A DNA stretch of 48,817 nt, taken from NCBI RefSeq assembly GCF_000186865.1, contig NW_008705580.1:213497-262313 (forward strand), read 5' to 3'. The notes beneath the pieces are model-generated. The model was not told where the DNA came from, searched no databases, and saw only the letters and a program-made list of their open reading frames with translations. Below are positions 10,355-26,375 of this stretch, one piece after another. Numbering within the stretch: the first letter of the stretch is position 1; each line of letters opens with the position of its first letter. The translations under genes were made by a program, and so were the position numbers. This stretch comes from Aureococcus anophagefferens. Taxonomy: Eukaryota; Sar; Pelagophyceae; Pelagomonadales; Pelagomonadaceae.

Positions 10355-11503
10355 CTAGGCCTTCTTCTTCTTGGGGGCGGCCTTCTTGGCGCCGCCGCGG
10401 AGCGCGACGCCGAAGAACGTCGCGCCGCTCTTGAGGAGCGCGTAGACGAAGCCCGCGGTGACGGCGGCCGCGAGGGGCGCGGCCCAGTAGACGAGGTAGT
10501 GCTGGTAGAAGGTCGGGAAGGAGCCCGTCGCGTAGAGGGCCCACGTCGTCGCGAGCATGGGGTTGATCGCCGGGCCGGCCGCGCCGAGGTAGACGATGAG
10601 GAAGCGGATGAGCGCCGCGACGCAGGTGATCTTGAGCGGGTAGATGTCCTTGAAGGGCGACTCGAGGCAGATCGCGAAGACGCCGAGGCAGAGCAGGAGC
10701 GTCGCGCCGAACTCGTGGAGCACCTGGGCAGGAAAAGGGTGCGAAATTCCCAACTTCAAAGGCTCCTATCTCGGTCGTTTTCCGCTCGTTTCGGCTGATT
10801 TTTGGACGAGCGATCATCTCTCGGAGCGCTCTCGAAGCGTGGGTGCTGTTTCCGAAACGCGCGCGCGCGGAACACTCACGTTGAAGCGACGTTGAATCAC
10901 CCTTTTCCTGCCCTGTGGAGCGCGGCCTCCCGGAGCGCGTCGCCGGCGATGGCCGCGTCGACCGCGGGGCCGCCGAGGGGCGTCCAGCCGAGGCGCGCGG
11001 CGAGCGTCTGGAGCGCCGGGAACGCGACGACGCCGCCGAGCATCTGGCCCGCGACGTGCGTGACGAACTGCGCCCAGGGGATCTTGCCGATGCAGCACAT
11101 GGCCATGGACACGCCGGGGTTGACGTGCGGGCCGCCGCAGGAGTAGTCGGCGGCGGCGACGCCGAGCCAGTGGCAGACCTATGATGTTGGGGTCCACGGT
11201 CGCGCTCCGCGACGCGCGATCCCGTCGTCGGACGCCGCGGCGGACCCAGTCGAGCGGCACGATCGCGTCGATGGCCGCGAGCGCCGGGTGCATCGCCGGC
11301 TCGAGCACCGTGCCGGCGACGCCCCACCACTTGCCGGGGCTGAACGTCGCGGCGATCATGATCGCGGCGCCGTAGCACTCGTTCCACCAGGCCTTGACCA
11401 GGCTCTTGCCCTGGCCGATGGGCGCCGCGACGAGGCAGAGGATGATCGCCGCGGCGACGGGGCCCTTGCAGGCGTAGCCGTAGCAGTCTTCGACGAGGTC
11501 CAT
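10355..11503 (-). CDS. aquaporin-superfamily channel with altered NPA boxes
   Basis: Three exons: 11503-11246, 11178-10924 and 10723-10355, 293 aa in total. Exon 1 holds the first membrane segments (GPVAAAIILCLVAAP, then ECYGAAIMIAATFS). Exon 2 carries the first pore loop, GGPHVNPGVSMAM, which is NPG instead of NPA. Exon 3 carries VLHEFGATLLLCLGVFAI and the second loop GPAINPMLATTWALY, which is NPM instead of NPA and lacks the usual following Arg of the selectivity filter. Such loops occur in unorthodox aquaporins (SIP, AQP11/12). The tail KKAAPKKKKA is basic, compatible with ER or endomembrane residence (inference). Intron 1 (67 bp, GT-AG, phase 0) has a decayed 9-bp flanking repeat. Intron 2 (10923-10724, 200 bp, GC-AG) is a TIR introner. 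Divergent from ASF1 with 268 bp between them. Confidence 0.8.
10724..10914 (+). mobile_element. introner element A (TIR element acting as aquaporin intron 2)
   Basis: Perfect 16-bp terminal inverted repeats: GGGCAGGAAAAGGGTG at 10726-10741 and its complement at 10898-10913. The flanks are a 9-bp duplication with one mismatch, GTGGAGCAC (10715-10723) and GTGGAGCGC (10915-10923). In the gene's orientation the intron is GCGCTCCAC + element, ending CCTGCCCAG, and the next exon starts GTGCTCCAC. Removing 10923-10724 rejoins GAG GCC | GTG CTC CAC GAG in frame. The interior matches elements B and C: CAAAGGCT near 10758, TCGGCTGATTTTTGGACGAG from 10791, and CACTCACGTTGAA near 10874. It encodes no protein, so a transposase would act in trans. 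It is inserted antisense to the host gene. Confidence 0.85.
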
Positions 11504-11771
11504 CGTGTGCTAGTTGCGACGAGGCGGTGGGTATGGGCGGCGCGCGCGTGCGGGTACACCTCAAGAGGCGCCGATCCGGAGCGTTTTGCCTCGCGCTCAC
11601 CTCGAGCGAGGGCGAGCGAGCCGCGCGGGCCCGAGCCGCTTTGAACGCGTCGAGCTGCACGCCGTGTCTGTCGCGCAAGCCGAACGACGACGCCGACGGT
11701 TCCCGTAGCGCCAGATTCCACGCCGCCCGACGCGTCGCACGACCGCGCGTCCAAAACCATTCGTCGCGCCG
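11504..11771. promoter_or_regulatory. divergent promoter region, aquaporin / ASF1
   Basis: 268 bp separate the two start codons. No TATA-like or conserved element could be singled out. The layout implies a shared, possibly bidirectional promoter (inference). Confidence 0.4.
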
Positions 11772-12344
11772 ATGCTCATGGACCCGCAGCAGCCGGTCGC
11801 GATGCCGCCGCCGCCGCCCCAGCAGCAACCCCAGCAGCAGCGCCCGACGCAGCCGAGCCCCGTGAACGTGACGAACGTCGTCGCGCTGGCGAACCCGGCG
11901 ACCTTCGCGTCGCCCCTCGACTTCGAGATCACCTTCGAGTGCACCGCGGCGTTGCCGGACGACCTCGAGTGGCGCATGGTCTACGTCGGCTCCGCGGACG
12001 ACAGCTCCTACGACCAGCTCCTCACGGAGGTCGAGGTCGGCCCCGTGCCCGTGGGCGTGAACAAGTTCGTCCTGAGCGGCGACGCGCCGAACCCCGCCGC
12101 GATCCCGCCGGGCGACCTGCTGGGCGTCACCGTCGTCCTCATCGCGTGCGCCTACCGGGGCCAGGAGTTCCTCCGCGTGGGCTACTACGTGAGCAACGAG
12201 GCGCCGGAGCACGACGTGCCCACGGCCCAGACCGTGACGCGCACGGTCCTCGCGGAGAACCCGCGCGTCACGCGCGTCGACATCGACTGGCTCGCGCCGA
12301 AGCCCGCGGACGCGTACGCGGCGCCGGCCTTTAGCTTCTCCTAA
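11772..12344 (+). CDS. ASF1: histone chaperone ASF1
   Basis: ATG at 11772, 190 aa. After a short Pro/Gln-rich leader (residues 1-30) comes a nearly canonical ASF1 Ig-like core: VNVTNVVALANPATF, FEITFECTAALPDDLEWRM, VYVGSADDSSYDQLL, VGPVPVGVNKFVL, DAPNPAAIPPGDLLGVTVVL, YRGQEFLRVGYYVSNE. ASF1 binds the H3-H4 dimer and hands it to CAF-1 or HIRA during replication and transcription, in the nucleus. The family's long acidic C-terminal tail is absent; the protein ends soon after the core with a short Ala/Pro stretch. The extra N-terminal Pro/Gln leader is unusual, and the second Met (residue 3) is an alternative start. The stop codon TAA (12342-12344) overlaps the stop of the convergent methyltransferase gene. 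Confidence 0.95.
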   Translation: MLMDPQQPVAMPPPPPQQQPQQQRPTQPSPVNVTNVVALANPATFASPLDFEITFECTAALPDDLEWRMVYVGSADDSSYDQLLTEVEVGPVPVGVNKFVLSGDAPNPAAIPPGDLLGVTVVLIACAYRGQEFLRVGYYVSNEAPEHDVPTAQTVTRTVLAENPRVTRVDIDWLAPKPADAYAAPAFSFS

Positions 12345-13819
12345 TCGTCCGCCGGCGGGGGCGCCGACGTGTAGATGGCGACGGGCGGCGGCTGGCCCGC
12401 GGGCGGCGCGCAGTCGACGCGCCACAGGTCCGCGCCCGCGTCGAGGAGGGGCACGAGGAGCGGCGCCGCGGCCCCTCTTTTCGCGAGCGCGCGCAGCAGC
12501 AGCTCGAGGGACGTGCGCCGCTCGTTGGCGACGACGAGGTGCGCCGGCGGTTCCGGCCGCGCCCAGAGCGCCGCGACGGTCGCCGCGAGCGCGTCGACGA
12601 CCGTCGAGTCGTACGCGCAGTCGCAGCAGACGACGACGTCGACGGCCGGCAGGTCCGCGGGCAGCGGCGCGCCCCAGACGAGCGTCGCCGCTTTTGCCGA
12701 CGCGCCGTTGGCCGCGAGGTTCCTCGCCAGGCGGCCGACGTGGCGGTCGACGTCCGTCGCGCGGACGTCGCAGCCGAGCTTCGCGAGGACGACGGACAGC
12801 AGGCCCGTGCCCGCGCCGAGCTCGAGGATCTTCGCGCCCGGCCCGACGCGCAGCGGCAACAGGTCGCCGAGGAAGCAGCGCGCGCAGGCCAGCGCCGACG
12901 GCCACGTCACCGCGCCGATGCCGCCGGCCGCGTCCTCCTCCAACGTGACGACCTCTCCCGCGACGTCGAGCACCGTCGTCCCGCGTCCCCAGGCTCGGAC
13001 GACGAGGGCCGCCGCCGGCGCCGGCGGCGCGGCGCCGCGCGTCACCTCCCAGAGCTCGATGTCGTCCGCGCGGTATTTCGCGTCCAATCGACACTCCGGG
13101 ACCGTCGCGACCGCGAGCCCCCGCGCGGCGCAGAGCTCGGCGAAGCGCGCCTTCGGGTCGAAGGCCGGGAAGGTGCGCTGCTCGACGGCGAGCAGGCCCA
13201 GGGCGCCGTCGCCGAGGCACGCGTCGAGGCACGCGACCAACGGTCCGAGCGGGTAGAGCTGCGGGAGCACGCACTCGGACGCGAGGACGACGTCGTAGGC
13301 GTCGCGATCGGCGAAGGCGTCGCTCGCCCGCGGGTCGGCCCAGTCCATGGCCGCCACGGACACGGCGGCGCCGCCGAGCAGGCGCCGGTTCCTTTCGACG
13401 TTCTCGCGCGCGAGCCAGAGCACCGGCTCGAGGTCCGTGAGCGCGACGGCCTCCGCGCCGAGCGCCGCCGCCGCGAGGCCGCCGGCGCCCGTGCCCGCGC
13501 CGAGGTCGAGCGCGGACCAGGGCGTTCGGGCACCGGCGAATCGCCGCTCGAGGTGCCGCGCGAGCACGTGCGCCGCGGGCCAGACGGTGCCGCCCGTGCC
13601 GAGGCCCTCGAGCTCGCCCCGCTTCGTCTGGCGCAGGGACAGCGTCGCGCCGCAGGCCAGGTCGAGCTCGTAGGTCGCCGCGCCGGCGTAGGTCTGGCGC
13701 CAGGACAGGTCCCGGAGCGCGCGCGCGCCGACGCCGCCCTTGGCGCCCGCGGCGCCGCGCCGCAGCACGTCGACCATGGACGGCCGCCGCGGCGGCGCGT
13801 CGGCGGGGAAGCCGCTCAT
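12341..13819 (-). CDS. tandem METTL21/FAM86-type methyltransferase (two domains in one chain)
   Basis: ATG at 13819 (MSGFPAD..., 492 aa); an in-frame ATG at 13840 is possible. Two successive class-I SAM-dependent methyltransferase domains of the Methyltransf_16 type are seen. Domain 1 (about residues 70-260) has VWPAAHVLARHL, motif I LDLGAGTGAGGLAAAALGAE, motif II LTDLEPVLWLARENVERN and the post-II VVLASECV. Domain 2 (about residues 265-490) has WPSALACARCFL, motif I ILELGAGTGLLSVVLAKLG, ATDVDRHVGRLARNLAANG and VVCCDCAYDSTVVDAL. Known members methylate lysines of chaperones and translation factors; the substrate here is unknown. Both SAM motifs look intact, so both halves may be active. Single exon. 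Its stop (12343-12341) overlaps the ASF1 stop, and its start overlaps the upstream microprotein's stop in an ATGA. Confidence 0.85.
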   Translation of the reverse strand: MSGFPADAPPRRPSMVDVLRRGAAGAKGGVGARALRDLSWRQTYAGAATYELDLACGATLSLRQTKRGELEGLGTGGTVWPAAHVLARHLERRFAGARTPWSALDLGAGTGAGGLAAAALGAEAVALTDLEPVLWLARENVERNRRLLGGAAVSVAAMDWADPRASDAFADRDAYDVVLASECVLPQLYPLGPLVACLDACLGDGALGLLAVEQRTFPAFDPKARFAELCAARGLAVATVPECRLDAKYRADDIELWEVTRGAAPPAPAAALVVRAWGRGTTVLDVAGEVVTLEEDAAGGIGAVTWPSALACARCFLGDLLPLRVGPGAKILELGAGTGLLSVVLAKLGCDVRATDVDRHVGRLARNLAANGASAKAATLVWGAPLPADLPAVDVVVCCDCAYDSTVVDALAATVAALWARPEPPAHLVVANERRTSLELLLRALAKRGAAAPLLVPLLDAGADLWRVDCAPPAGQPPPVAIYTSAPPPADD

Positions 13820-14034
13820 GACCACTGGGCCTTCACCCACGCCTTGGCCGCGGCCGCGGGCGCGACGACCTCCTTGCGGTAGTAGGCCTGGACCCAGGTG
13901 AAGCAGTGCTCCTTCCCCGCGGCGTCGGTGTAGTCGGCCTCGAGCACGCAGTAGAACGCCGTGAGGCCCGAGACGACGAGGGTGAACTTGCGCTGGAAGC
14001 TCGGCCGCTTCCAGATGGTCGCCCAGGCGCTCAT
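13816..14034 (-). CDS. 72-aa single-span membrane microprotein
   Basis: ATG at 14034 (MSAWATIWKRPSFQRKFTLV); a longer start at 14070 adds 12 Arg/His-rich residues. The chain has a short basic-aromatic start, one hydrophobic segment (FTLVVSGLTAFYCVLEADY), a loop with a Cys-Phe-Thr-Trp patch and an Ala-rich end (AAAAKAWVKAQWS). It resembles small inner-membrane or respiratory-chain accessory proteins in layout only; I do not recognise the family. Even hydrophobic and aromatic spacing argues that it is coding. Its TGA (13818-13816) overlaps the methyltransferase ATG (13819-13817) as ATGA, as in a dicistronic message. Confidence 0.55.
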   Translation of the reverse strand: MSAWATIWKRPSFQRKFTLVVSGLTAFYCVLEADYTDAAGKEHCFTWVQAYYRKEVVAPAAAAKAWVKAQWS

Positions 14035-14196
14035 CCTCGGGCGGCGCAGGTGGCGACGATGGCTTGCCACTGCTTCAATCGCTGATGATGCCGTGCAAGT
14101 TGCACTTTTTTAGGCCATCTCCGAGGAGTCGCTGGGGCCCGCGCCGATAGGATACCATGGGCTTAGAGAGGCGCGCGAGGTTCCGCGGCGCCGGCT

Positions 14197-14973
14197 TCAC
14201 TGGAAGATGCGGCGCGTCTGCGCGACGGGCGCGCGGCACATCGGGCACTCGCGGAGGCGGGGCGCGCACGCCTCGCAGGCGACGACGTGCATGCAGTCGA
14301 GGAGCACCATGTTGCGGGGGCGGTCGAGGCAGCAGACACAGGTCCGCGAGTCGCCGCCCGCCCGCTCGCGGCGGACCGTCTCCGTGGACACCGCGGCGGT
14401 CGCGGAGGCGAGCGCGCCGGCGAGGTCCGCGAGGCCCCGCTCGTCGTAGGACGCGAGGTCGAGGCCGCGGAGGAGAGTGCCGGCGTCGGCGACGGACGCG
14501 GAGCGCGCCGCCCGGAGGTCGGCGGCGAGACCGCGCGCCGCGTCGCGCTCGCGTCGGAGCTCCGCGTCCGCCGCGGCGAGCCGCGACCGGAGCTGGCGCT
14601 CGACGGCGGCGGAATCCTCGCGCGCCCGCAAGGCCGCGGGACCAGGCCCGCGGCCGCCCGCCAAGCGGTCTGCCAGATTCCCCGCCAAGCGGTCTGCCAG
14701 ATTTTCCCGCAGACCTTCCGCGGCGGCGACGGCGGCGAAGTTGGCGAGGCCCGCGAAGAAGTCCCCGCCCGCGAACGCGTCCTGGTCGGCGGGCGCACCG
14801 GCCCAGAGCGCGTTGCCGCCCTCCTTGCGCACGCATTCGCACTTGAGCTTGACCACGCGGTCTCCCACGTCGAGCTTGACCACGACCCGGTCTCCCACGA
14901 AGCCGCCGACATTGCCGGACTGGCCGTTCAGCACCCCACCGCTATAAGTCGTGTTCTGGACGATGACCCTCAT
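14197..14973 (-). CDS. RING-finger protein, probable E3 ubiquitin ligase
   Basis: ATG at 14973 (MRVIVQNTTYSGGVLNGQ), 258 aa; an in-frame ATG at 15030 would add 19 residues. The N-terminal 60 residues are beta-rich with an internal repeat (VGDRVVVKLDVGDRVVKLKC). A coiled-coil-like Arg/Ala/Glu stretch follows (AVERQLRSRLAAADAELRRER). The C-terminal RING has CVCCLDRPRNMVLLDCMHVVACEACAPRLRECPMC spacing (the usual Cys pairs plus the central Cys-x-His), of the type found in MUL1/XIAP-like and algal RING proteins. Such domains bind an E2 and drive ubiquitin transfer. Residues around 104-120 include a tandem repeat (ENLADRLAGNLADRLAGG) from a 24-bp DNA duplication. Confidence 0.75.
   Translation of the reverse strand: MRVIVQNTTYSGGVLNGQSGNVGGFVGDRVVVKLDVGDRVVKLKCECVRKEGGNALWAGAPADQDAFAGGDFFAGLANFAAVAAAEGLRENLADRLAGNLADRLAGGRGPGPAALRAREDSAAVERQLRSRLAAADAELRRERDAARGLAADLRAARSASVADAGTLLRGLDLASYDERGLADLAGALASATAAVSTETVRRERAGGDSRTCVCCLDRPRNMVLLDCMHVVACEACAPRLRECPMCRAPVAQTRRIFQ
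14661..14703. repeat. 24-bp tandem duplication within the RING gene
   Basis: CCAAGCGGTCTGCCAGATT occurs at 14661-14679 and 14685-14703. It is in frame and duplicates the peptide NLADRLAG. Confidence 0.85.
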
Positions 14974-15206
14974 GCTGGCACAACGAATGAGCGACCGCCC
15001 GTGCGAGAGGGTTTGCAGAATGAGACGCACACGGGCGGCTTCAGACGATTCGGCGGATCGTTTGCGAGTTTTTTTGACTCGAATTTTGAGCGAGCCGGAC
15101 GAATAGGCGTACGAGTCAGACGACGAGTCCTACGATGAATCCTACCATGGCGAATTTGCGACTCTCCTGCGCCACGAGGCACGCCCGACGACCAAAGCAC
15201 AGCGTA

Positions 15207-16814
15207 CTAGAGCACGACGCCGCGCGCGACGGAGCGGCGCTTGTCGACGTTCTTGCGGAACTTGCGCCACTCGCAGAGCTGGACCTGGAGGTCGTAGATG
15301 GTCATGGCGCCCGCGATGGCGGCCGCCGGGATGTCCGGGAATTTCGCGCGCGTGCGCTCCGCGACCCAGGCGATCATGGGCCGGAACCGCGGCTCCGCGG
15401 CGTCGAGCGCCGGCGAGTTGAGGTGGTCGAAGAGGTGGCGGAGGCGCCGCTTCCGCGCGGCGTCGCCGCCGCCGCGCGCGCCGTAGAGGAAGGAGAAGGC
15501 CTCGTCCGCGCCGTCGCCGACCTCGCAGTCGTCGCCGAGGATGTTGAGGTGGGGCCGCCAGAGGTGGTTCGTCACGAGGAGCACCTTGGACATCGTCGGC
15601 CCGATGCGGTCGAAGCCCCGGTAGCACGCGTCCAGCGCCGCGAGCGACACGCCGCCCGGCGCCGCCACCAAATCGTAGGCCGCGAGGCCGATCTCGGCAA
15701 AGTGCGCGTGGCGGTGGATGATGTAGTCGCAGTAGTTCGCGCCGCCGTCGCCGCGCTGCGGGTAGGAGTTGAAGGCGCGCGTGTGGAGCTTGTTGCCCCG
15801 GTCCCGGAAGGCCGCGGCCGCCGCGCGCACGGGGCCGTCCGCGCAAAAGGCCTCGCGGGGCCGCAGGCACCGCGGGCCCCGGCGCTCGCCGTCGTCCGCG
15901 TAGAGGCCCGCGGCGTCCCGCGCCTTGGAGAAGTAGGGCAGGATGACGTCGCGCCAGAGCGGGCACCAGCGGCTCGCGGAGAAGGCCGTCGCGAGCACGA
16001 ACTTCTCCCGGTCGTCGAGGTCCGGCGCGGACCGCAGCTCCGTCATCAAGAACCGCTCCTGCTCGCAGGTCACCGTGTGCCAGGGCACCCAGCGGTCGCC
16101 GAGGGCGGGGCCCCGCAGGAACGCGTTCATCAGGTCGCCGCAGGACGCCACGTCCTCCGGCCCCTGCGACGCGTCCGCCGCGGCGAGCGCTTCGTCGAAC
16201 GCCGCGAAGCCGCCGCCGGGCGCGACGATCGTGCCGTACTGCCACCGCAGCTGGCAGAGGAAGAACTGGACCATGTGCGCGACCTCCGCGGGCGCCACGC
16301 GGTCGTCCTTCGGCGACCTCGGCGGCGACGCGGCGGCGGGCTTCGCGCGCTTCGCGGGCGACGGCGCCTTCGCGGCGGGCGACGGCGCCTTCGCGGCGGG
16401 CTTCCGGCTCGGAGCCCGGCGCTTCTTCGGCGCGGGCGCCTCGGGCTCCGAGTCGTCGTCGAAGTCGCGGCGCGCGGCCTTGCCGAGCTTCGCGAAGCCC
16501 TTGTCGACGTCGTTGCGCAGGTCCGCGCGCGTGCCGCCGCGGTCGAGGAACTGCTGCACCGTCGTCGCGGACTTGTACTTCTCGTAGCGCGCGTGCGACT
16601 GCGTGTTGGGCCGCTTCGGGTTCCTGCGCCGGAAGCGCACGGCCGTCGCCGTCGGCACGGCGCCGTTCGCGTTGCTCAGCACCTCCACCGACGAGGTCGA
16701 CGCGTCGTCGTCGTCGTCGCTCGACGAGTCCGCGTCGCTCGCGACGTCGGAGTCGTGCACGTCGCCGGCGAGGTGCCGCGCGATCTGCTCCTCCTGCGTC
16801 TCGTCGGCGCCCAT
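15207..16814 (-). CDS. nuclear protein with alpha-glutamyl/putrescinyl-thymine pyrophosphorylase-like domain
   Basis: ATG at 16814, 535 aa, single exon. Residues 1-190 are disordered: an acidic-Ser stretch (DADSSSDDDDDASTSS), then Lys/Pro/Ala-rich basic motifs (KKRRAPSRKPAAKAPSP) that look like nuclear localisation signals. Residues 195-535 are globular. Within them, FDRIGPTMSKVLLVTNHL resembles the 'GxGPxxAxxxxxDL' helix-turn of the HhH-glycosylase-like pyrophosphorylase fold. NILGDDCEVGDGADEAFSFL resembles the 'VGPGAxxG' segment, and LQVQLCEWRKFRKN resembles the C-terminal 'LCEFDKY' motif. That family acts on hypermodified thymine in phages and has eukaryotic relatives (established family knowledge; assignment here is by eye). 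A role in DNA base modification or repair is inferred. Divergent from the YHYH gene, 136 bp apart. Confidence 0.45.
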   Translation of the reverse strand: MGADETQEEQIARHLAGDVHDSDVASDADSSSDDDDDASTSSVEVLSNANGAVPTATAVRFRRRNPKRPNTQSHARYEKYKSATTVQQFLDRGGTRADLRNDVDKGFAKLGKAARRDFDDDSEPEAPAPKKRRAPSRKPAAKAPSPAAKAPSPAKRAKPAAASPPRSPKDDRVAPAEVAHMVQFFLCQLRWQYGTIVAPGGGFAAFDEALAAADASQGPEDVASCGDLMNAFLRGPALGDRWVPWHTVTCEQERFLMTELRSAPDLDDREKFVLATAFSASRWCPLWRDVILPYFSKARDAAGLYADDGERRGPRCLRPREAFCADGPVRAAAAAFRDRGNKLHTRAFNSYPQRGDGGANYCDYIIHRHAHFAEIGLAAYDLVAAPGGVSLAALDACYRGFDRIGPTMSKVLLVTNHLWRPHLNILGDDCEVGDGADEAFSFLYGARGGGDAARKRRLRHLFDHLNSPALDAAEPRFRPMIAWVAERTRAKFPDIPAAAIAGAMTIYDLQVQLCEWRKFRKNVDKRRSVARGVVL

Positions 16815-16950
16815 GGCGGCGATGGGTCGAGGCCGCGCGCGCGGAGAGCGAGCAGAGCGCGCGCAGTCGAGGGCGGCAATCGCCTCAAGGAGCTTGAGTT
16901 GGCCTGCATCCTCATGTTGATCCCTCTAATGAAACTTCCAGGAGCGGCCG

Positions 16951-18496
16951 ATGCGTGCATCTTCGGTGTCTTCCCTCGCGCTTGCGGCGCTCGTCGCCTT
17001 CGCCGAGGCCGGCGCGCCCGGCTCCAAGGGCGACCGGAACCGCCGCCACGCGATCCTGGGCCTCTCGGAGCGCGACGGCGCCTTCGTCCTCGGCCGCAAG
17101 CCCGTGGCGCGCATGCACGACTCGTCCGGCGCGTCCGGCGGCGGCGGCCCGCCGCCCGGCGGCGGCCCGCCGCCCTCCGGCGGCGGCATGCCGCCCGACG
17201 GCGAGATGGGCGGCACGGACAACGCCGGCGGCGCGACGCCGTCGTCGTCGTCGCCGCACGCGGGGGCGATGCTCGGGAGAGTCGGCGGGACGACGGTCGC
17301 CACGATCGCCGGCAAGGAGGACATGACGACGTCCGACGGGGCCGCGGACCAGGACATCTACGGCCCCTTCGAAGCGGGGTTCACGTCCGCGCAGGACTTC
17401 ATCCTCGAGGCGCTCGGCTGCGCCACGCCGTCCGACGGCTACGTGCCGGGCGGCGGCGACCGGCGTCCCGCGGCCGCGACGAATGTCCCGGGGTTTCGAC
17501 CGCCGAAACGGATGACGCGCTCGGGTAGGCATCGACACGGTCACGGCCGAGTCCATGGTCGGCTACGCCTGCGGCGTCGAGCTGCCCCGCTACGACGCAA
17601 GCGGCAACTACATCTCGCTCATCGACGAGTGCGGCGGGCACACGAGAGAGTAGTCGGCGGCCCGCGTCGTCGTCCGACGCGCCCCGACGCCCCGTCCCCC
17701 CCCGCAGCCACTACCACGAGCGCCTGAGCTGCCTCTACGACGACAGCCTCTCGGGCCACAGCACGCAGGTCGGCGCGGCGACGGACGACGCGTCGACGCC
17801 CATCTTCGGGAGCTACGAGGACACGGACGTCCACCCGGAGGACCTCGACGCGTGCGGCGCGCACTTCGGGCCGACGCCGGACTCGGGCGGCGTGGACGTC
17901 TACCACCACCACGTCCAGGAGAAGCCGCCCTTCATCGTCGGCTGCTTCGGCCCCAGCGACGACGGCGGGCCCGTGACCTACGACGAGTGCGTGTCCTACT
18001 ACTCGGGCTGCGACCAGGACTGGTACGAGGTGACGACGCAGGACGGCGTCACGCGCAACTACGACCTCTGGCGCGCCGCGGCGCGGGCGACGCGTCGAGC
18101 GACGTTCGCGAAACCCGTCGCGCCGTAGGTGCCCCTGCTACGTCGACGGCTTCTCCGACCCCGCCGACGCGTCGGGTCCGACGCCGCGGCCCACGGCGCC
18201 GCCGCCGACGCGGTCGCCGACGGCGAAGCCGACGGCGGCGCCGTCGCCCGCGCCGACGGCCACGCGGCGCACGGTCGTCCGCGGCGCCCTCGAGCTCGCC
18301 GGCCTCTCGCTCGCGGACGCGGAGGCGCAGGCGGCCGTCCTCGCGTCCGCGATCCTCCTCGCGGCCGGCGCGGACGAGGCCACGGCGGCCGTGGCGCTGA
18401 GCTTCGCGGCGCTCGCGGGCCGCCGGCGCCTCGACGAGGGCGTCGAGGTGACCTACGACCTCACGGTCCTCGCGCAGGACGGCGACGAAGCCGGCG
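16951..18496 (+). CDS. secreted YHYH-domain protein, interrupted by an assembly gap
   Basis: ATG at 16951 begins a signal peptide (MRASSVSSLALAALVAFAEA). A Gly/Pro-rich stretch follows, then IYGPFEAGFTSAQDFILEALG. The frame changes three times, each explained by a short intron. Intron 1 ends at TAG 17528, starting at GC 17453 or GT 17465. Intron 2 is 17650-17707 (GTAGTC...CCGCAG, 58 bp, phase 2). Intron 3 is 18071-18128 (58 bp, phase 2, GC donor, TAG acceptor). The joined exons give MVGYACGVELPRYDASGNY, IDECGGHTRDHYHERLSCLY, and VDVYHHHVQEKPPFIVGCFG, the signature of the YHYH domain (function unknown). After that come a Cys-rich segment, a Thr/Pro-rich linker (PTAPPPTRSPTAKPTAAPSP) and a repeat-like surface domain (GALELAGLSLADAEA ... 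RRLDEGVEVTYDLTV). The coding frame runs into the N gap. Probably extracellular. Confidence 0.7.
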
Positions 18497-18546
18497 NNNN
18501 NNNNNNNNNNNNNNNNNNNNNNNNNNNNNNNNNNNNNNNNNNNNNN
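18497..18546. other. assembly gap of 50 Ns
   Basis: Exactly 50 undetermined bases. It hides the 3' end of the YHYH gene, so the true distance may differ. Confidence 0.99.
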
Positions 18547-18569
18547 AGGCGCGCGAGCTCGACGGCTGA

Positions 18570-19828
18570 CGAACGGGCCCCTACGACTCGCCCAAGGTGT
18601 CGGACGCGTCCCTGCGACTCGTTCTGGCTTGCCGACGGTTTCGGGGTCGTTTTCGGTGCCCGAGAGGCGCTGTTTTCGCCGACGAGAAAACGCTGCCGTC
18701 GCGCGGTCTTTTTGGCCGGACCGTCGCGTATGGTCATGCCGACGTGCGCGCGGCCCTTTAGAGCGCCGAAAACGACTCGTGTGTCGTCGCGTAAGGGTCG
18801 GTTTGGGGCTGGATTCCCTCTAGGGATCGGACGAACGCCATCCGATCGCTGCAACACCCTCACAACTGGGCGTGAAAGTTTGCTGGGCCCTTCCTTAGGC
18901 GCACCCGCCGGTGCTTACCAATTTTTCACCATAGAAACTACCATCGTCGCGCGCACTGGCCGACGGCGCCCGCCGCTCCCGGCGTGATCCCCAGCCAACT
19001 CGCTCGGGCCGCTCTCCGAGCAGCTCAGAGAGCATGTGACAAGCTTTGAGACCTTTTACAGCCGCTACAGCATGGATTCCAGCCGTTCCGCTTCCCACGC
19101 GCTCCAGATGTGTTGCGCCGACAACGCGGTGCAAAAGTAGTCGCGCGAACGCGGTCGCGCGCGTCCGAAATCGGCTCAAAAGGGATCGATTTGCGACCAT
19201 ACCCTACGATCCTAGACTTTGCGCGAGTTCGGGCGTGCCAGGAGTCGCAGGGGCGTCGATCGTGTCCTATCGTAACCCCATCGTCGCGCTGCGCAAGCGG
19301 TTCCGCGTCTTGGCGTCCGTCGGCGTTTTGGCAGCGTTCGCGGTCGTGTCGGCGTTTCGGCGCTCGTCTCGAACGCGCGGCCGCGGAGTCGAAACAGTCC
19401 CCGAGGGTGTTCTCGCGGTTCAGTCCGCTCGAGGCGTGTATGGAGCAGACCGCGGTAACAAAACGGCTCTCTATGATGCCACGAGCGGCTCGGAGAGGTG
19501 GGATCGACACGATTTGAGCATATATTCGTCGAGAGCGCGACCGCCGCGCGCCCGCGCGCCCGCGATTCGCTGGAAAAAAGTAGTCAGGCCCACGCGTTGG
19601 GTCTATGCGCCGCGCGTCACGGCTTTACCGCGCTCAAATCGACGCGGTACAGCCGCCGTCTCGGCCAGACGGCGGCGGCGCCAGCGGCTGAAACAGGCCA
19701 AAAGGCAGTGCAGAGGGCTCGATGCTGCGGCGTTGCGAGAGCGATGCTCACGCTATGCGAGGCTACGCAGCCCCTGGCGCGCCCGTAGCGTTGGACTAGC
19801 GTCGCAGCAATCCTCCTGTGCGATCGCG
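18570..19828. other. gene-poor stretch, nothing recognised
   Basis: About 1.26 kb with lower GC and less codon-like periodicity than the flanks. Open frames exist on both strands (for example 19025-19510 minus) but show no domain, no credible start context and no GC3 bias. A hydrophobic stretch encoded near 19300-19360 on the plus strand (RVLASVGVLAAFAVVSAF) could be chance or a remnant. No tRNA, rRNA or repeat array seen. It may contain the YHYH gene's 3' UTR and the cupin gene's promoter. Confidence 0.5.
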
Positions 19829-20887
19829 ATGGCGAGCGCTCGCGCCGTCGTGCGCCGCGTGCGTGCGCTGCGGCCGCGCCGCGACCTCGGCGTGCGTGCG
19901 CTGCGGCCGCGCCGCGACCTCGGCGTGCGTGCGCTGCGGCCGCGCCGCGACCTCGGCGTGCGTGCGCTGCGGCCGCGCCGCGACCTCGACGAGGCGGCCA
20001 TGCTGCAGAGCGCCGAGCCCGTCCTGCTCTGCGCGACGGTCGCCTGCACGCGCCACTGGCCCGCGCTCGCCGCTGTCGCGGAGCTCGGCGTGCGCGGCTA
20101 CCTCGCGCGACTCCCGACGACCGTCGACGTCCGCGCGGCGGCCGACGTCGCGGCGCGCGGCGGCGCGCCGGACGCGACCCGCGGCGCCGGCGTCGCGCCG
20201 GGCGCGCTCGCCCTGTCGCCGGAGACCATCGTCTTCTCGACGGCGCGCGACGCGACGTGGCGCGCGCTGCGGCCGCCCCTCGAGGACGCGCGCTGCGCGG
20301 CGCTCCGGGCGAACTCGCTCCACGGCGTCGTGAGCGTCGCGGGCCCCGGCGGCGGGCTCGGCTACCACCGCCACGGCGCCGCGTGGCTCGCGCTGCTCGG
20401 CGGCGAGAAGCGCTGGCGCCTGCGGCCGCCGTCCGCGCGCGGCGCCGCCGCGCCGCGGGAGGACGACGACGACCAAGGCGCGCTCGAGGCGGTCCAGCGC
20501 GCGGGCGACGTCCTCTGGGTGCCCGCGGGCTGGTGGCACCGCACGCTCGCCGGCGGCGGCGACCTCGCGCTCGCCGTCGGCGGCCTCGGCGCGTCGCCGG
20601 GGTTGATGTGGGCCTGCTCGGAGGGCCTCCTCGGGCCGCTCGAGCGCGCGCCGCGCGAGGCCCTGGACGCGCGCCACGGCCGCGCGCGGTCGACGCTGTT
20701 GCACACGGCGGCGTACCACGGTCATCGCGACGTCGTCGAGTTCCTCCTCGACGCGGGCGCGGCCGGCGGGCCGGGCGCGCGCGACGCGGCCGGGCTGCGG
20801 GCGATAGACTGGGCCCGCCGCCGCGGCCACGGCCGCGTCGTCGACCTGCTCCTCGCCCGCCGCGGCTCGCCGGCCGTGCTAAGCTAA
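19829..20887 (+). CDS. cupin/JmjC-like oxygenase fold with C-terminal ankyrin repeats
   Basis: ATG at 19829, 352 aa; Met at 20000 (MLQSAEPV) is an alternative start past the repeat. Residues 9-53 are four 11-residue repeats (GVRALRPRRDL) from a 33-bp minisatellite. Then comes a Cupin_8/JmjC-type core: GLGYHRHGAAWLALLGGEKRW supplies the metal-binding region, and QRAGDVLWVPAGWWHRTL is the classic final His strand. Family members usually have HxD at the first site; here the candidate reads HxH. They are Fe(II)/2-oxoglutarate hydroxylases or demethylases of proteins. The last ~70 residues form two ankyrin-like repeats (STLLHTAAYHGHRDVVEFLL, then LRAIDWARRRGHGRVVDLLL), suggesting a bound protein partner. 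Whether the enzyme is active is uncertain. Confidence 0.65.
   Translation: MASARAVVRRVRALRPRRDLGVRALRPRRDLGVRALRPRRDLGVRALRPRRDLDEAAMLQSAEPVLLCATVACTRHWPALAAVAELGVRGYLARLPTTVDVRAAADVAARGGAPDATRGAGVAPGALALSPETIVFSTARDATWRALRPPLEDARCAALRANSLHGVVSVAGPGGGLGYHRHGAAWLALLGGEKRWRLRPPSARGAAAPREDDDDQGALEAVQRAGDVLWVPAGWWHRTLAGGGDLALAVGGLGASPGLMWACSEGLLGPLERAPREALDARHGRARSTLLHTAAYHGHRDVVEFLLDAGAAGGPGARDAAGLRAIDWARRRGHGRVVDLLLARRGSPAVLS
19857..19988 (+). repeat. 33-bp minisatellite, four copies, in frame
   Basis: The unit GTGCGCTGCGGCCGCGCCGC + GACCTCGGCGTGC is repeated about four times almost perfectly, encoding GVRALRPRRDL each time. The perfection implies recent expansion. It lies at the N-terminal end of the cupin gene, so it may be coding or 5' UTR. 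Confidence 0.9.
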
Positions 20888-20989
20888 CGTCACGCTACGC
20901 GCCGGGCGACCCACTCTTCGACCCGCTGGGGTGGCGTCGTCCGTTTAAAGCATTACGCCGCGCCCCCGGGCGCGTCCGGGCGCCCGAAC

Positions 20990-21568
20990 CTACGACGAGG
21001 GGAACTCGGCGTCGTTGGACTGGATGATGCCGACGATGATGCCGAAGATGCCGAGCGCGGACGCGAAGATCTCCACGATGAGGATCTTGACGAAGAGGCT
21101 CGCGTCCTGGGCGTCGGCAAGGGCGCAGGAGCTCCCGGCGATGCCCACGGAGATGCCGCTCGCGACGTTCGTGAGCCCCACGGACATGCCGGAGGAGAAG
21201 AGCGCGTAGCCCGCAAAGTACCACTGGTTGTAGTTCCAGTCGTCGGGCAGGCTGCCGGACTTGGTCTCGCCCCCGTCGCCGATCTTGCTCAGGAGCAGGA
21301 TGGCGAGGATGACGCCGTAGATGGCCGTCGCCTCGCAGAAGATGACGGAGATGAGGTTCTTGCTCCGGATGCGCGGCGCCTTGACGGCGGCGCCGACGAG
21401 CGACGACCCCGTGAGCCAGATGCCCCAGGCCGCGCCGACGACGCTCAGGCCGAGGCCGAAGGCGATGCCCATGTAGGCCCAGCCGTAGGGGCTCAGGTTC
21501 GTCAGCACCTCGTCGTAGGACGCGTTGCACGCCGCCGCCTCGCACTCCTGGTACCCGTTCGACGACAT
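20990..21568 (-). CDS. VMA16: V-type H+-ATPase proteolipid subunit c''
   Basis: ATG at 21568 (MSSNGYQECEAAACNAS), 192 aa. Four or five membrane helices are visible: PYGWAYMGIAFGLGLSVVGA, NLISVIFCEATAIYGVILAI, WYFAGYALFSSGMSVGLTNV and LFVKILIVEIFASALGIFGI. The second of these contains FCEATAIYG, with the essential proton-carrying Glu. The GISVGIAGSSCALADAQD loop is typical of the family. Subunit c'' forms part of the V0 rotor ring that pumps protons into vacuoles and endomembrane compartments. The frame is open upstream to 21745, but that leader is Arg-rich and the Met at 21568 matches family starts. It is convergent with the cupin gene, 102 bp apart. Confidence 0.95.
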   Translation of the reverse strand: MSSNGYQECEAAACNASYDEVLTNLSPYGWAYMGIAFGLGLSVVGAAWGIWLTGSSLVGAAVKAPRIRSKNLISVIFCEATAIYGVILAILLLSKIGDGGETKSGSLPDDWNYNQWYFAGYALFSSGMSVGLTNVASGISVGIAGSSCALADAQDASLFVKILIVEIFASALGIFGIIVGIIQSNDAEFPSS

Positions 21569-22660
21569 GGCCGGGGGGCGCGGGCGCGGCGCGTCGGTCG
21601 CAGCGCGCGTCGAGGGCGACGCGACCGAGCGGCGGCGCGGGGCGCGGCGACGAGCGGCGACGAGCGCGTCCACCTCTCGTGCGGCTGTGGCAGCACGTCG
21701 GCAGCTCCAGCGCGATGTCGCCGAAGTTGAGGCAAAAGCTGACATTCGGCGCCCGTCCTCGCAAGGGGATATAAATCTAGATGGGGTGGCAGGCGAAACG
21801 CGAGGTCCTCGTACTACTCGGGGCCGCCGCTAGCGTTTTCTTTCTTCTTCCACGCCGCAGCGCGCGGGCTGAGTGCAACGATGGCGGGTCGCGCGGCGCG
21901 GCGCGGCTGCGGAACCCTTCGACGGGGCGGGGCAGCGAATTTGGGCTGCTGAGATCATTGCGTTGGCTCGCGAGCGCGACGGTTGTTCGGCGGCGGGACG
22001 AGAGGGCGGCGGTGTGAGTCAAGCTGTGCGATATTTTCTTGTCCTTAGAGGTTGGAGGCGCCCTATGGGTACCCGCGGGGGGCTCGAACTCCTTCAGGAC
22101 ACACTTTTCCCACGATCTCAGAGCCTGCGCAGCCCCGGCGCCGACGCACACAGTTTCTCGGGCAGCGTGCGGGCATTCGAGGTCGAGAACTTTTCGTGTC
22201 CTGAGATGCTCGAGCCCATCCATAGGTACCAACGAAGGGCTCTGCAGCGGCAGCAGACGGTCCACGACCATCATCATCGCGAACACGTCCAAGAGCTGCC
22301 CCAAAACCCCCTTCCTCGCGTGGCGCCAAACCGGACACGGTGCCCTCCAGCGCGCCTCGGTTTCCTTCCACCGGACCCGAACCGCCCGGACGCGTAAGTC
22401 TTGTCGCGGGCGCCTTCGCGGGGGAGCGAATACCGCTGCGGTCCGTCTGGGGCCGCGTCGACGACGGCGGCGTCGAAAAGTCCCCGGCCAAAAGTCGTCA
22501 ACATTGCCCCAAAACGATGGGTTGCAGTACGAGGAGCTCGCGCAACATAATCTCGTTGAGCTGCCCCATACTATTTATTACCCCTTGGTCCTCGTCTGGC
22601 ATCGATCGCGACGTGTCGCCCCAGTCCGTCGACGAATCCGTCGTCTGCCCGACCCACACA
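21569..22660. other. 1.1-kb upstream region, no gene seen
   Basis: It lies between the divergent V-ATPase c'' and FYVE-SYLF genes. GC is lower than in coding DNA. Several open frames of 140-175 codons occur on both strands (for example 22063-22491 minus and 21873-22397 plus), but they overlap one another and show no domain or codon bias. A pyrimidine-rich tract lies near 21840-21852. Probably promoters and 5' UTRs. Confidence 0.5.
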
Positions 22661-24388
22661 ATGTCCCAGTTCGAGAGCGGCGGCTTCGACGACTTCGCGC
22701 CGCCGCCGCGCGGCGGCTACGGGGCGCCGCCCCCCGGCCGCGGGCCGCCGCCGGGCGCCTACGGCGCGCCGCCGCCCCGGCACTACGGGGGCTCGGGGAA
22801 CATGACGGCGGGCATCCCGCGCGTCGGCGCGGCGCACGCCGGCCAGCGCTTCGGCGGCGGCGGCGGCCTGCGCCCGAGCGCGCCGACCTGGGTGCCCGAC
22901 GCGTCCGTGACGGGCTGCTCGAGCGCCCACTGCGGGACGCAGTTCGACACGTTCGAGCGGCGGCACCACTGCCGCTACTGCGGCCTCGTCTTCTGCGGCA
23001 AGTGCACGGAGGCGACGAGCCTCATGCCGCCCCAGTGGGAGGGCGGCTGCGGCTTCTCCACGCGCGACCCGCAGCGCGTCTGCGGCCAGTGCCGCCTCGA
23101 GCTCGAGCCGCACCAGCAGAAGTGGATCGAGCAGAACTGCAACGCGAACCGGACCAACGCACTGGACCTCAACGACTCGACGACGCGCTACCTCAACAGC
23201 CCCCTGCGCTTCACGCTCGGCGGCGAGGTGCGGAAGGCGGGCTCCGGGGCGGGACACGCGCGCGAACTTCCCGACGTCAAAGGCTGTTCTCTCGGCCGCG
23301 TGCCACGCGTTTCGGCCGATGTTTGGACGAGCGATCATCATCTCTCGGAACGGCCTCGACGCGTGGATGCTTTTTTCCGGAACGCGCGCGCGCGGAACGC
23401 TCGCACGTCGAATCGCTCGTCTCCCGCGCAGGCGGGCTACGCGCTCAAGAACCTCACGGACGGCGTCAACGTCTGGGACCGCGACCTCGAGTACTTCGAC
23501 CAGCAGCTCCAGGGCGCCGACGGCCTCCTGTTCCTGACGGTGGCGAAGGTCGCGTTCATCTCGGGCATCCGCGTGGGCACGGGCCTCGTCGTCGCGCGGC
23601 TGCCGGACGGGTCGTGGTCCGCGCCGTGCGCGGTCGGGTCGTCGGGCTTCACCTTCGGCGCGGTCGTCGGCGCGGAGATCACGGACATGATCACGGCCGT
23701 CGACGCCCAGGCGCTCGCGGAGCTCTACGACGCGCAGACGACGAAGCTCACGTTCGGCGGCGAGGCGTCGTTCGCCTTCGGGCCGCTGGGCCGCACGGCG
23801 ACGGGCGAGGCCATGGTGGCCACGGACGCGTCGACGGCGACGGCGACGGCCTACAGCCAGAGCCGGGGCTTCTACGGCGGCGTGACCGTCGACGCGTCGC
23901 ACCTCCGCGTCCGCGACGACGTCAACCTCAAGTTCTACGGCAAGCCCGTGTCCGCGGCGGACCTCCTCCGGGGCGCCGAGCGCCAGCCCACGGCCGCCGC
24001 GCCGCTCTACGAGCAGCTCCACGCCTTCTACTCGACGATGAACGCGCGCCTCGCCGCGGCGACGGCGACGAACGCGCCGTCCTACGCGGCGGGCGGCCAG
24101 CCGCCGCCGCAGCCGCCGCCGTCCTACGGCCAGCAGTACCAGCAGCCGCCGCCGCCGCAGCAGTACCAGCAGCAGCCGCAGCAGTACCAGCAGCCCGCGG
24201 CGGCGGCGTCGTCGACGTGGTCCGCGCCGTCGTGGAGCACGCCCCAGAGCCAGCAGTCGACGAACGCCTGGGGCGGCGCGGCGCAGCCGGCGAAGCCCGC
24301 GTCGGGCGGCGGCGGCTTCGACGACATCTTCGGCCCGCCGAAGCCCGCGGCCGGCGGCGCCGCGGACGCGGGCGTCGTCGAGGTCTAG
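22661..24388 (+). CDS. FYVE-SYLF lipid-binding protein
   Basis: ATG at 22661. Exon 1 (22661-23236) encodes a Gly/Pro-rich start and a FYVE zinc finger at about residues 78-150: WVPDAS (WxxD), RRHHCRYCG (the PI3P-binding basic motif), FCGKC and a final VCGQC. Exon 2 (23432-24388) encodes a SYLF/Ysc84 domain: YALKNLTDGVNVWDRDLEYF, GADGLLFLTVAKVAFISG, GTGLVVARLPDGSWSAPCAV, GFTFGAVVGAEITDMI and SQSRGFYGGVTVDASHL. A Gln/Pro/Tyr-rich tail (QQYQQPPPPQQYQQ) and a Trp/Phe-Asp end (GGGGFDDIFGPPKP) follow. SYLF domains bind phosphoinositides and actin at endocytic sites, so an endosome-membrane role is expected. The 195-bp GC-AG intron (23237-23431) is introner B. It happens to stay open in frame, so retention would insert 65 residues. 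Spliced length 510 aa. Confidence 0.88.
   Translation: MSQFESGGFDDFAPPPRGGYGAPPPGRGPPPGAYGAPPPRHYGGSGNMTAGIPRVGAAHAGQRFGGGGGLRPSAPTWVPDASVTGCSSAHCGTQFDTFERRHHCRYCGLVFCGKCTEATSLMPPQWEGGCGFSTRDPQRVCGQCRLELEPHQQKWIEQNCNANRTNALDLNDSTTRYLNSPLRFTLGGEVRKAGSGAGHARELPDVKGCSLGRVPRVSADVWTSDHHLSERPRRVDAFFRNARARNARTSNRSSPAQAGYALKNLTDGVNVWDRDLEYFDQQLQGADGLLFLTVAKVAFISGIRVGTGLVVARLPDGSWSAPCAVGSSGFTFGAVVGAEITDMITAVDAQALAELYDAQTTKLTFGGEASFAFGPLGRTATGEAMVATDASTATATAYSQSRGFYGGVTVDASHLRVRDDVNLKFYGKPVSAADLLRGAERQPTAAAPLYEQLHAFYSTMNARLAAATATNAPSYAAGGQPPPQPPPSYGQQYQQPPPPQQYQQQPQQYQQPAAAASSTWSAPSWSTPQSQQSTNAWGGAAQPAKPASGGGGFDDIFGPPKPAAGGAADAGVVEV
23244..23430 (+). mobile_element. introner element B (TIR element acting as FYVE-SYLF intron)
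   Basis: Flanked by a perfect 8-bp duplication GGCGGGCT (23236-23243 and 23431-23438), 9 bp if the preceding A is counted. The ends are imperfect inverted repeats: GCGGGACACGCGCG near 23249 against the complement of CGCTCGTCTCCCGC near 23414. The intron as spliced starts with the GC of the left duplication (23237) and ends at the element's own CAG (23429-23431), restoring GTG CGG AAG | GCG GGC TAC. The interior is clearly homologous to element A: GTCAAAGGCTGTTCTCTCGG from about 23275, TTTGGACGAGCGATCATCAT near 23322, and CGCGCGCGGAACGCTCGCAC near 23385. It is sense to the host gene, opposite to element A. Confidence 0.82.
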
Positions 24389-24412
24389 GCTCCCCCCCCT
24401 TCCCCGCGCCTT

Positions 24413-26040
24413 TTACTCGTCGTCCGAGTCCGGCGGCGGCTTCGTCGCAGGGAAGATCGTGTGGACGAGGCGCCGGTTCGCGGCGAGGTCCGGCGGCCGC
24501 ATCTTCGTGTTGAGGCCGCCGAGGCCGAGCGCCGCGGCCTCGAGGGACGCCGGGTCCGCGAGCTCCGTCTTCCGGAGGACGATGTTGAGCTTGCGGTTGC
24601 GCCAGAGGGCCGCGAGGCGCGAGTAGGACGACCAGAAGGAGCCGAGGATCTCGCCGCAGGCCGCGAGCGCGAGCAGGTCGACGAGCGCGTCCTGGCAGCC
24701 GTCGACGCCGACGCGGTTCGCCTGTGCCGAAACCAACCACTGGTTTGGGTGGTCCTGACCAAACTTGAGAATTCTCTAGCTCGGTCAAATCGAAGTCGAT
24801 TCGGCTGATTTTTGGACGGATCGATCGCTCTCGTCGAGTTCTCGAAGCCCAGCCGAAGAACTTGTGTCAAAACATTCGAATACGCTCATATTGAAGTCGG
24901 GTTGAAGATTTGGTTTCGGCACAGCGGTTCGCGTAGCCGTCGACGGCCGTGCGCTTCGCCGACGTGACGACGTCGATCTTGCCCCGCCAGGTCTCGAGGA
25001 AGGCCGCCTCGACGGCCGCGTCGTCCGTCGCGAGGTAGATCTTCGACGGCGGCGCCGGCCGCGCGAGGCGCGCGGCGACCCAGTCGTCGAAGAGCTCCGG
25101 CGGCGAGTGGATGATGGACGCCGCGTTGTCCGTGCGGCGCACGTGGACCGCGAGCGCGCCGTCGAGTGCGGGCACGCGCGCCGCGACGGCGTCGATGGGC
25201 TCCAGCGTCCTCAGGTACGCGGAGCGGAACGCCTCGATCGTGTCCGCGTCGTCTTTCGGGTTGTTCGCGGGCGACCGCGTCGCCAGGAGCTCGTCGACGC
25301 CGCAGCAGGGCCCGCCGTCGCCGCCGAGGTCCTTGGCGCCCGGCGGGTAGAAGAACTCGTCCGTCTCGAGCGCGACGACGTCGACGTTGCCCGCGACGCC
25401 GACGTTGCCCTTGGCCGCGCGGCGGGTCAGCTTCAGAGCCCTGCCGAGCTTGTCGACGTCCCGGCAGACGCGGCCCGCCTCGCAGGCCTTGGCGAACCGC
25501 TCCGCCGTGACCGACGCCGTCCGCGTCTTGAGGCGGTCCGCGTCCGCCTCCAAGACTTTCCTCGCGAGCGTCGCGCGGACGCCGACGTCGGGGACGGCCG
25601 CCGCGACGTCGTCGAGCGTCGCCTTCGAGAGATCCAAGGACCCCAGCTCGACGATGCGCGGGTGGGGCTTGAACAGGTCGGAGAAGCGGCAGCCGCAGGC
25701 GACGTCGGGCACCCAGTCGAGCGCGATGCGGATCTCGCCGGGCGCGTAGCCGAGCGCGCGCTCGACGTCGTCGACGTAGAAGAGCGCCGCCGTCAGCGCG
25801 CGCAGGCGGTTGCAGAGGCCCTGGAGGGGCTTGAGCAAAACGAAGCGCAGGCGCCGCACGCTGCCCGCGGCGTACGCGGGCGCGTGGACGAGCTCGTGGC
25901 GGCCGCAGGCGTCGCAGTGGTAGCCGTCCGCGGCGATGCGGAGGCCGTTCTCGGCGCAGCGGCGGATCGTGAACCGCTTGCAGTCGTCGCGGCCGTGGCA
26001 GCAGGGCCCGGCCTCGGGGGGGACGGCCCTGAAGCCCACG

Positions 26041-26071
<31 letters not shown>

Positions 26072-26375
26072 CGGCCGGCGCCGGCGCCGCGCCCGCGGGC
26101 CGCCGCGCCTCGAGGACGACCTGATCGCGCGTGAAGAGCGTCGACACGCACCGGGCCGCGTCGAGCTCCTCGAGCGTCCCGTTGGCGTTCCTCACGGAGA
26201 GCACGAGCTCGTCCTCGGGCAGGTAGGCCCCGCGCTGGCGCGACATGACGTGGCCCTCGAGCAGCTTCATGACGGCGCTCAGCGGCTTCGTCTCCCACTT
26301 CGCCGGCAGCTTGACCTTGAGCTCCATGTCCGGCGCGCCGCGCACCTTCGCCGTGCACGTCACGTCGCGGACCAT
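24413..26375 (-). CDS. O-fucosyltransferase-like glycosyltransferase with N-terminal ubiquitin-like segment
   Basis: ATG at 26375. Exon 1 is 26375-24933 and exon 2 is 24721-24413, 583 aa in total. Residues 1-92 look ubiquitin- or PB1-like (MELKVKLPAKWETKPLSAVM, then EDELVLSVRNANGTLEEL). A Pro-rich linker and a Cys/His-rich segment follow (CCHGRDDCKRFTIRRCAENG, YHCDACGRHEL), which could bind zinc. The glycosyltransferase part has LKPLQGLCNRLRALTAALFY (the GxxNRL-type loop), LAVHVRRTDN (donor-binding Arg), KIYLATDD and DGCQDALVDLLALAACGEIL with LGSFWSSYSRL, the pattern of GT23/O-FucT-like enzymes that use GDP-fucose. There is no signal peptide or membrane anchor, so a nucleocytosolic location is likely (inference). 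The 211-bp intron (24932-24722) is introner C. The 3' end lies 24 bp from the convergent FYVE-SYLF stop. Confidence 0.72.
24722..24923 (+). mobile_element. introner element C (TIR element acting as glycosyltransferase intron)
   Basis: Perfect 15-bp terminal inverted repeats: CTGTGCCGAAACCAA at 24722-24736 and its complement ending at 24924 (the last base is shared with the duplication). The flanks are a perfect 9-bp duplication GCGGTTCGC (24713-24721 and 24924-24932). In the gene's sense the intron begins with the GC of GCGAACCGC and ends GGCACAG; splicing restores TAC | GCG AAC CGC GTC GGC. The interior shares TCGGCTGATTTTTGGACG (from 24801) with element A, plus TCTCTAGCTCGG and TTGAAGTCGGGTTGAAGAT. 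Its TIR sequence differs from A and B, so the ends diverged more than the core. Antisense to the host gene. Confidence 0.85.

Follow-up and report, generated by a model that had tools for sequence, protein, structure and literature searches.

Introner elements that take one of their splice sites from a duplication of the target were reportedly described in Aureococcus anophagefferens by Huff, Zilberman and Roy in 2016 (Nature 538:533). Other articles give the Aureococcus introners a characteristic length of about 210 bp (PMC9481584) and describe direct repeats with terminal inverted repeats of constant length and splicing motifs termed canonical (PMC7789003). Here we describe three such elements, A, B and C, in a window of 48,817 nucleotides from A. 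anophagefferens (positions 213497-262313 of one contig; the genome searched comprises 49.05 Mb in 86 contigs), and we regard it as close to certain that they represent a single lineage of short, non-autonomous DNA transposons with inverted repeats, acting as introners. Most of the introns found here measure 200 or 211 nt, and 60 of 105 donors are GC, which differs from the canonical motifs mentioned above. The elements resemble the introners of Symbiodinium microadriaticum (Gozashti et al. 2022, PMC9860276) in carrying the 3' splice site, in drawing the 5' splice site from the target-site duplication and in having terminal inverted repeats, but the duplication is 4 bp in Symbiodinium and 8 bp here. 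One family from Aureococcus sp. described in the same paper brings both splice sites with it and leaves an extra 12 bp in the transcript, unlike A, B and C. The presence of introners in A. anophagefferens is therefore already known; what we add concerns their handedness, the tolerance of their donors and a possible explanation of GC-AG introns. The window provides a dense and clean example of intron-making transposons in a species where these have been reported.

The earlier note on this DNA had placed three elements here, each bounded by inverted repeats and a short duplication. All three are present with slightly corrected ends, and the duplication is 8 bp in length. Their features are as follows.
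10724..10915, minus strand: introner A, 192 bp; in host sense it starts CAGGGCAGG and finishes CCTGCCCAG.
10916..10923, minus strand: upstream copy of the A duplication, GCGCTCCA, on the donor side, forming the opening 8 nt of a 200-nt intron.
10716..10723, minus strand: downstream copy of the A duplication, GTGCTCCA, the initial exon bases 3' of the intron.
23245..23431, plus strand: introner B, 187 bp; in host sense it starts CGGGGCGGG and finishes CCCGCGCAG.
23237..23244, plus strand: upstream copy of the B duplication, GCGGGCTC, on the donor side.
23432..23439, plus strand: downstream copy of the B duplication, GCGGGCTA, in the exon.
24722..24924, minus strand: introner C, 203 bp, with inverted ends CTGTGCCGAAACC and GGTTTCGGCACAG.
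24925..24932, minus strand: upstream copy of the C duplication, GCGAACCG, on the donor side.
24714..24721, minus strand: downstream copy of the C duplication, GCGAACCG, in the exon.

Read in host sense, all three introns share one layout, an 8-bp duplication opening with GC as the donor followed by an element closing with CAG as the acceptor. Each intron consists of the element and one copy of the duplication, giving spans of 10724-10923 (200 nt) for A, 23237-23431 (195 nt) for B and 24722-24932 (211 nt) for C. The two copies of the duplication match in register at 7/8, 7/8 and 8/8 positions for A, B and C, respectively, and the inverted ends at 11/12, 9/12 and 12/12; C ends in AG at its 3' end whichever way the element is read. 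A scan of both strands of the window for this architecture returned five matches, namely A, B and C and two stretches of GC-rich low-complexity sequence. The core that the three elements were said to share is related if B is taken in antisense and the other two in host sense; global alignment against shuffles gave z scores of 18.2 (A-B), 9.7 (A-C) and 5.5 (B-C). As a control in the wrong orientation (A against unreversed B) gave 5.2, the kinship of A with B and of A with C is firm, while that of B with C holds only by way of A; B is a GC-richer and more diverged relative of A. The core lies opposite to the host sense in A and C and in the same sense in B, in agreement with the claim that insertion occurred in both orientations. 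The introns of A and C, whose ends pair with each other, fold better than their shuffled versions (z -2.8 and -5.3), which was not the case for B (z -0.4). This folding follows from the inverted repeats and is therefore no proof of introner status.

The three host genes, proposed to be unrelated, are listed below; the first two are identified by Pfam and the third as FUT8-like by an alignment profile only.
10355..11503, minus strand: host of A, an aquaporin-like gene (MIP; PF00230 matches the spliced part of 207 aa with E 1.6e-14).
22661..24388, plus strand: host of B, a protein with FYVE and SYLF (Ysc84) domains, 510 aa when spliced (Pfam FYVE and Ysc84/SYLF).
24413..26375, minus strand: host of C, a protein of the FUT8/NodZ-like fucosyltransferase family, with 583 aa after splicing.

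A Pfam search with the C host protein gave no match above the cut-off. A profile of its alignment does match structures of FUT8, over profile positions 402-512 (best E 5e-6), with the junction at about residue 480. Cutting out one duplicate together with the element yields open frames for MIP (A), for FYVE and Ysc84 (B) and for the 583-aa protein (C). The claim that every element sits where the frame needs an intron held for A and C, either of which breaks the host frame when retained, but not for B, whose 195-nt intron lacks an in-frame stop and leaves the frame open. Since the frame is open either way, B alone does not force an intron, and relatives of its host protein decide the matter. At the B junction the relatives have no insert, reading EVRKAGYAL in P0001 (99% identical) and P0004 and EVRKAAY in P0005-P0007. 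Inserts are likewise lacking at the A junction in P0122, P0123, P0124 and P0126, ahead of an HEF or HEC motif, and at the C junction in P0137 (98%), P0138, P0139 and P0140. Excision thus restores the host protein, as had been proposed, in that all three hosts agree with their relatives after removal of the element. These insert-free records may be either empty sites or the products of splicing. Upstream of A, the reading frames of the aquaporin gene suggest a second short intron of about 67 nt near 11179-11245 on the minus strand, where several donors would fit.

The cores recur across the genome in thousands of dispersed copies. A 24-mer from A has 981 exact genome matches (control 0), and the shared 18-bp core has 3,808 matches with at most two mismatches (reversed control 1). 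DNA searches of the genome named 1,799 (A), 1,708 (C) and 1,751 (B) candidates, of which 40 were scored for each query, the query itself being included for A; identities among these were 96-100% to A and 97-100% to C, and 81-88% to B for its other copies. In the fetched loci the core pattern gave 135 matches where BLAST gave 140 elements, duplicates included. From the core matches and this recovery we obtain a genome total of about 3,900 copies, or about one per 12.5 kb. A guess of about one element per 8 kb, taken from the flanks of fetched loci, was dropped in favour of the direct count. Runs of core matches on the same strand proved to be an artefact of the match list, in which an exact reverse-strand match at L099 was missing. 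A viral route was also considered: the A 24-mer had no match in IMG/VR, and the core 18-mer matched one contig with AT-rich surroundings and no element, which we ascribe to chance.

Frame restoration was examined at loci picked mostly by similarity to A, B or C. A first pass over 60 A and C loci located boundaries in 58, of which 57 kept the frame. The main set comprised 104 loci with 138 distinct elements, 135 of them far enough from the locus ends and 133 with flanks of sufficient length. In 119 of the 133 the duplication (at least 7/8) and the inverted ends (at least 9/12) were clear, showing that the architecture of A, B and C extends to other loci; 105 of these clear copies also had coding, strand-resolved flanks. 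The strand was assigned from the base composition of the flanks, and 51 of the 58 first-pass loci, which are themselves part of the later set, served to train the codon model. The frame was restored in 129 of the 133 copies analysed. In the clear coding set all 105 copies restored it, with AG as the last bases and G as the first donor base. The boundary finder rewards C and G at fixed end positions, and the final G of AG is consequently favoured by construction; the preceding A and the G of the duplication are unrewarded. As a control, 3,000 random points were taken in the same loci, and at those that were coding and strand-clear the frame was kept in 76 of 1,853 when 200 nt were cut and in 66 of 1,829 when 211 nt were cut, or about 4%. 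Intron length was not a multiple of three in 95 of the 105 clear coding copies. Fourteen of the first 17 places listed for the A 24-mer, in coordinate order (L092-L105), were also followed, and 14 of 14 restored the frame and ended in CAG, including one with a duplication of only 6/8 (L096) and one with weakly coding flanks (L103).

The 72 copies of A/B type in the clear coding set have an acceptor end that is always CAG, while the other end is CAG in 52, CGG in 19 and CCG in one and offers no acceptor in the reverse sense. With AG at one end only, an A/B copy works in one orientation and is in this sense one-handed. The core lies opposite to the host sense in 36 of the 72 and in the same sense in 36. 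On a tree of the element interiors, built with the ends left out, handedness among these 72 copies requires five changes by a two-state count, and a table of groups gives five and six changes compared with a shuffled mean of 27.4; the starred branches of this tree force at least one and at least two changes, and 69 of its 84 inner branches are weak. All 28 young A copies in the clear coding set (at least 97% identical to A) are opposite, and the other 44 A/B copies divide into 36 same and eight opposite. In the A/B lineage the acceptor therefore belongs to one transposon end, is inherited and has switched. The C copies make up one side of a starred branch. Of these 33 copies, 32 carry CTG at the 5' end, and the core has the host sense in 20 and the opposite sense in 13; in this lineage the acceptor is present at both ends and copies work either way round.

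These observations suggest how a transposon could become an introner. An ordinary end pair, CAGGG...CCCTG, would provide no acceptor; a change of the second base at one end would give CCCAG and make the element functional as an introner in one orientation. Within one lineage the acceptor might then come to lie at either end, with a young burst of all-opposite copies arising beside a more diverged, mostly same-sense pool. We lean, with modest confidence, towards the view that the second base of the inverted repeat sets the handedness (switchable in A/B, two-ended in C) and that donor tolerance accounts for the abundance of GC-AG introns. The passage from transposon to introner would then follow a testable rule involving one base of the transposon end. 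The rule may be new, as we did not meet it in the literature on introners that was compared, which included the available parts of PMC9860276 and PMC7789003, Huff et al. 2016 standing outside the comparison.

The donors of the 105 clear coding copies are GC in 60, GT in 44, GA in one and GG in none. All 105 have G at position 1 of the duplication, but only 35 of them have C at the mirror position, 8, from which it follows that the donor rule tracks the sense strand and not a palindromic target preference. At random coding points (n = 773) the base after G is A in 18%, C in 44%, G in 27% and T in 11%. Set against this background, the relative acceptance of donors is 1 for GT, about 0.34 for GC and about 0.01 for GA, with an odds ratio of 2.9 for GT versus GC (p 6e-6), which gives an estimate of the tolerance of GC donors. 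In a survey from 2011, 39.6% of the introns of A. anophagefferens were of the GC-AG type, an abundance described there as hard to explain (PMC3033335). Donors drawn from duplicated GC-rich coding 8-mers may explain much of it. A search for U1 small nuclear RNA gave no match, and its controls were also silent.

The course of events that we favour for A, B and C as introners is the following. A transposase supplied in trans would insert a copy and duplicate 8 bp of the target, in keeping with the duplications and inverted ends observed. The upstream duplicate would serve as the 5' splice site wherever the 8-mer, read on the sense strand of the gene, opens with GC, GT or, in rare cases, GA; the end of the element would provide AG, and splicing of the RNA would remove the duplicate with the element and restore the message, as the observed frames and proteins lead one to expect. 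Other genic insertions would presumably be purged by selection. Dispersed copies, intron positions in unrelated genes and splice sites at the boundaries, all of which are seen here, are the marks of introners. The earlier proposal that these are introners derived from DNA transposons, the element providing one splice site and the duplicated target the other, is supported by the copies, duplications, inverted ends, frames and orientations.

Several observations besides the open frame of a retained B weigh against this account. Among the 28 copies outside the clear coding set, 24 restored the frame and four did not; two of the latter lack clear ends (L041 and L070, of which L070 meets masked letters) and two have a weak strand call (L071 and L077). 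AG at an end, on either strand, was found in 127 of 133 copies. A distant relative of the C host, P0141 (30%), has six additional residues at the junction. For the hosts of A and B, the closest named proteins belong to A. anophagefferens itself (P0002 and P0003, FYVE-SYLF; P0121 and P0125, aquaporin) and match the window save for apparent differences in gene models. P0002 and P0003 drop VRK, as if the donor were a GT 9 nt upstream, and P0121 contains PQGRKRVIQRRFN, which is translated element A. Comparison of the sequences suggests that these public models misplace the introner donors, at window 23226-23245 and 10880-10924, as some public gene models of this species appear to do. Element A also holds an internal GTGAGT, a possible rival donor, whose use would shift the frame according to a count by eye. 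The G rule is obeyed by 82 of 82 one-handed clear copies, five of them with weakly coding flanks (such flanks occur in six of the 119 clear copies), and this obedience exceeds what neutral survival outside genes would predict. Finally, Pfam models for hAT (PF05699), MULE, KDZ, IS1595/Merlin and the P-like GBD each returned 0 matches in the genome, and these searches brought up no autonomous partner with the same ends; the transposase controls gave matches for MULE (3/14) and IS1595 (1/14) only and none for hAT, KDZ or either P model, and for PF05699 four candidates were scored.

The obedience of these 82 copies whatever their flanks, together with the small number of copies outside coding-like sequence (126 of 133 copies lie within it, compared with 2,218 of 3,000 random points), would be expected if the restriction to G plus pyrimidine (GY) on the sense strand arose from targeting at insertion, perhaps through a link with transcription, rather than from later selection. 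We consider this unlikely in view of the C copies, whose ends are symmetric and which nonetheless show GY at duplication positions 1-2 in 32 of the 33 clear copies, compared with the mirrored purine plus C at positions 7-8 in four. A symmetric transposon has no simple means of telling which strand is sense, and survival of spliceable insertions alone is the simplest interpretation. The same preference for coding-like sequence, and the donor rule kept even with weakly coding flanks, could also point to an RNA route, in which the elements reverse-splice into transcripts and are then reverse-transcribed, as has been proposed for fungal introners. This is very improbable given the locus-specific 8-bp duplications and inverted ends and the occurrence of near-identical C copies, and of A/B copies, in both orientations in the numbers given above, which sense intron RNA would not produce. 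That ordinary miniature inverted-repeat transposable elements (MITEs) landed in genes by chance and were retained, to leave pseudogenes or extra protein segments, would fit the open frame of B but is scarcely credible when the frame is restored in 129 of 133 copies and all 105 clear ones against about 4% of random cuts, most introns are not a multiple of three and the hosts agree with their relatives only once the element is removed.

As transposons, the introners have the attributes of MITEs, namely a fixed 8-bp duplication and terminal inverted repeats, clear in the 119 copies noted above. The ends of A read CAGGG, which we take to resemble those of hAT elements. The hAT superfamily is characterized by an 8-bp duplication and CAGGG-like ends, together with a hAT transposase. 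Elements A, B and C share with hAT and P-element MITEs the 8-bp duplication and a short non-coding body, but differ from them in that nearly every copy examined here looks like an intron. P elements likewise produce 8-bp duplications, according to PMC7776569. The only match to the P-element-like RNaseH model PF21787 in the genome is a broken fragment (L106, C25:178372-178818, 43.2 bits) with three in-frame TAG codons, all of them immediately preceded by AAC. As a candidate mobiliser this fragment is a weak lead, linked to the introners by the number 8 alone.

The window has a GC content of 72%, and the published A. anophagefferens draft is given as 49.9 Mb with 70.5% GC in PMC11237714. Elsewhere in the window we note a run of 50 N at 18497-18546 and tandem repeats at 46607-47190 (period 54 bp) and 19824-20021 (period 33 bp), both periods being divisible by three. 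In the region 41870-43533 repeats lie about 123 bp apart, and on inspection their codons hint at candidate armadillo-type repeats.

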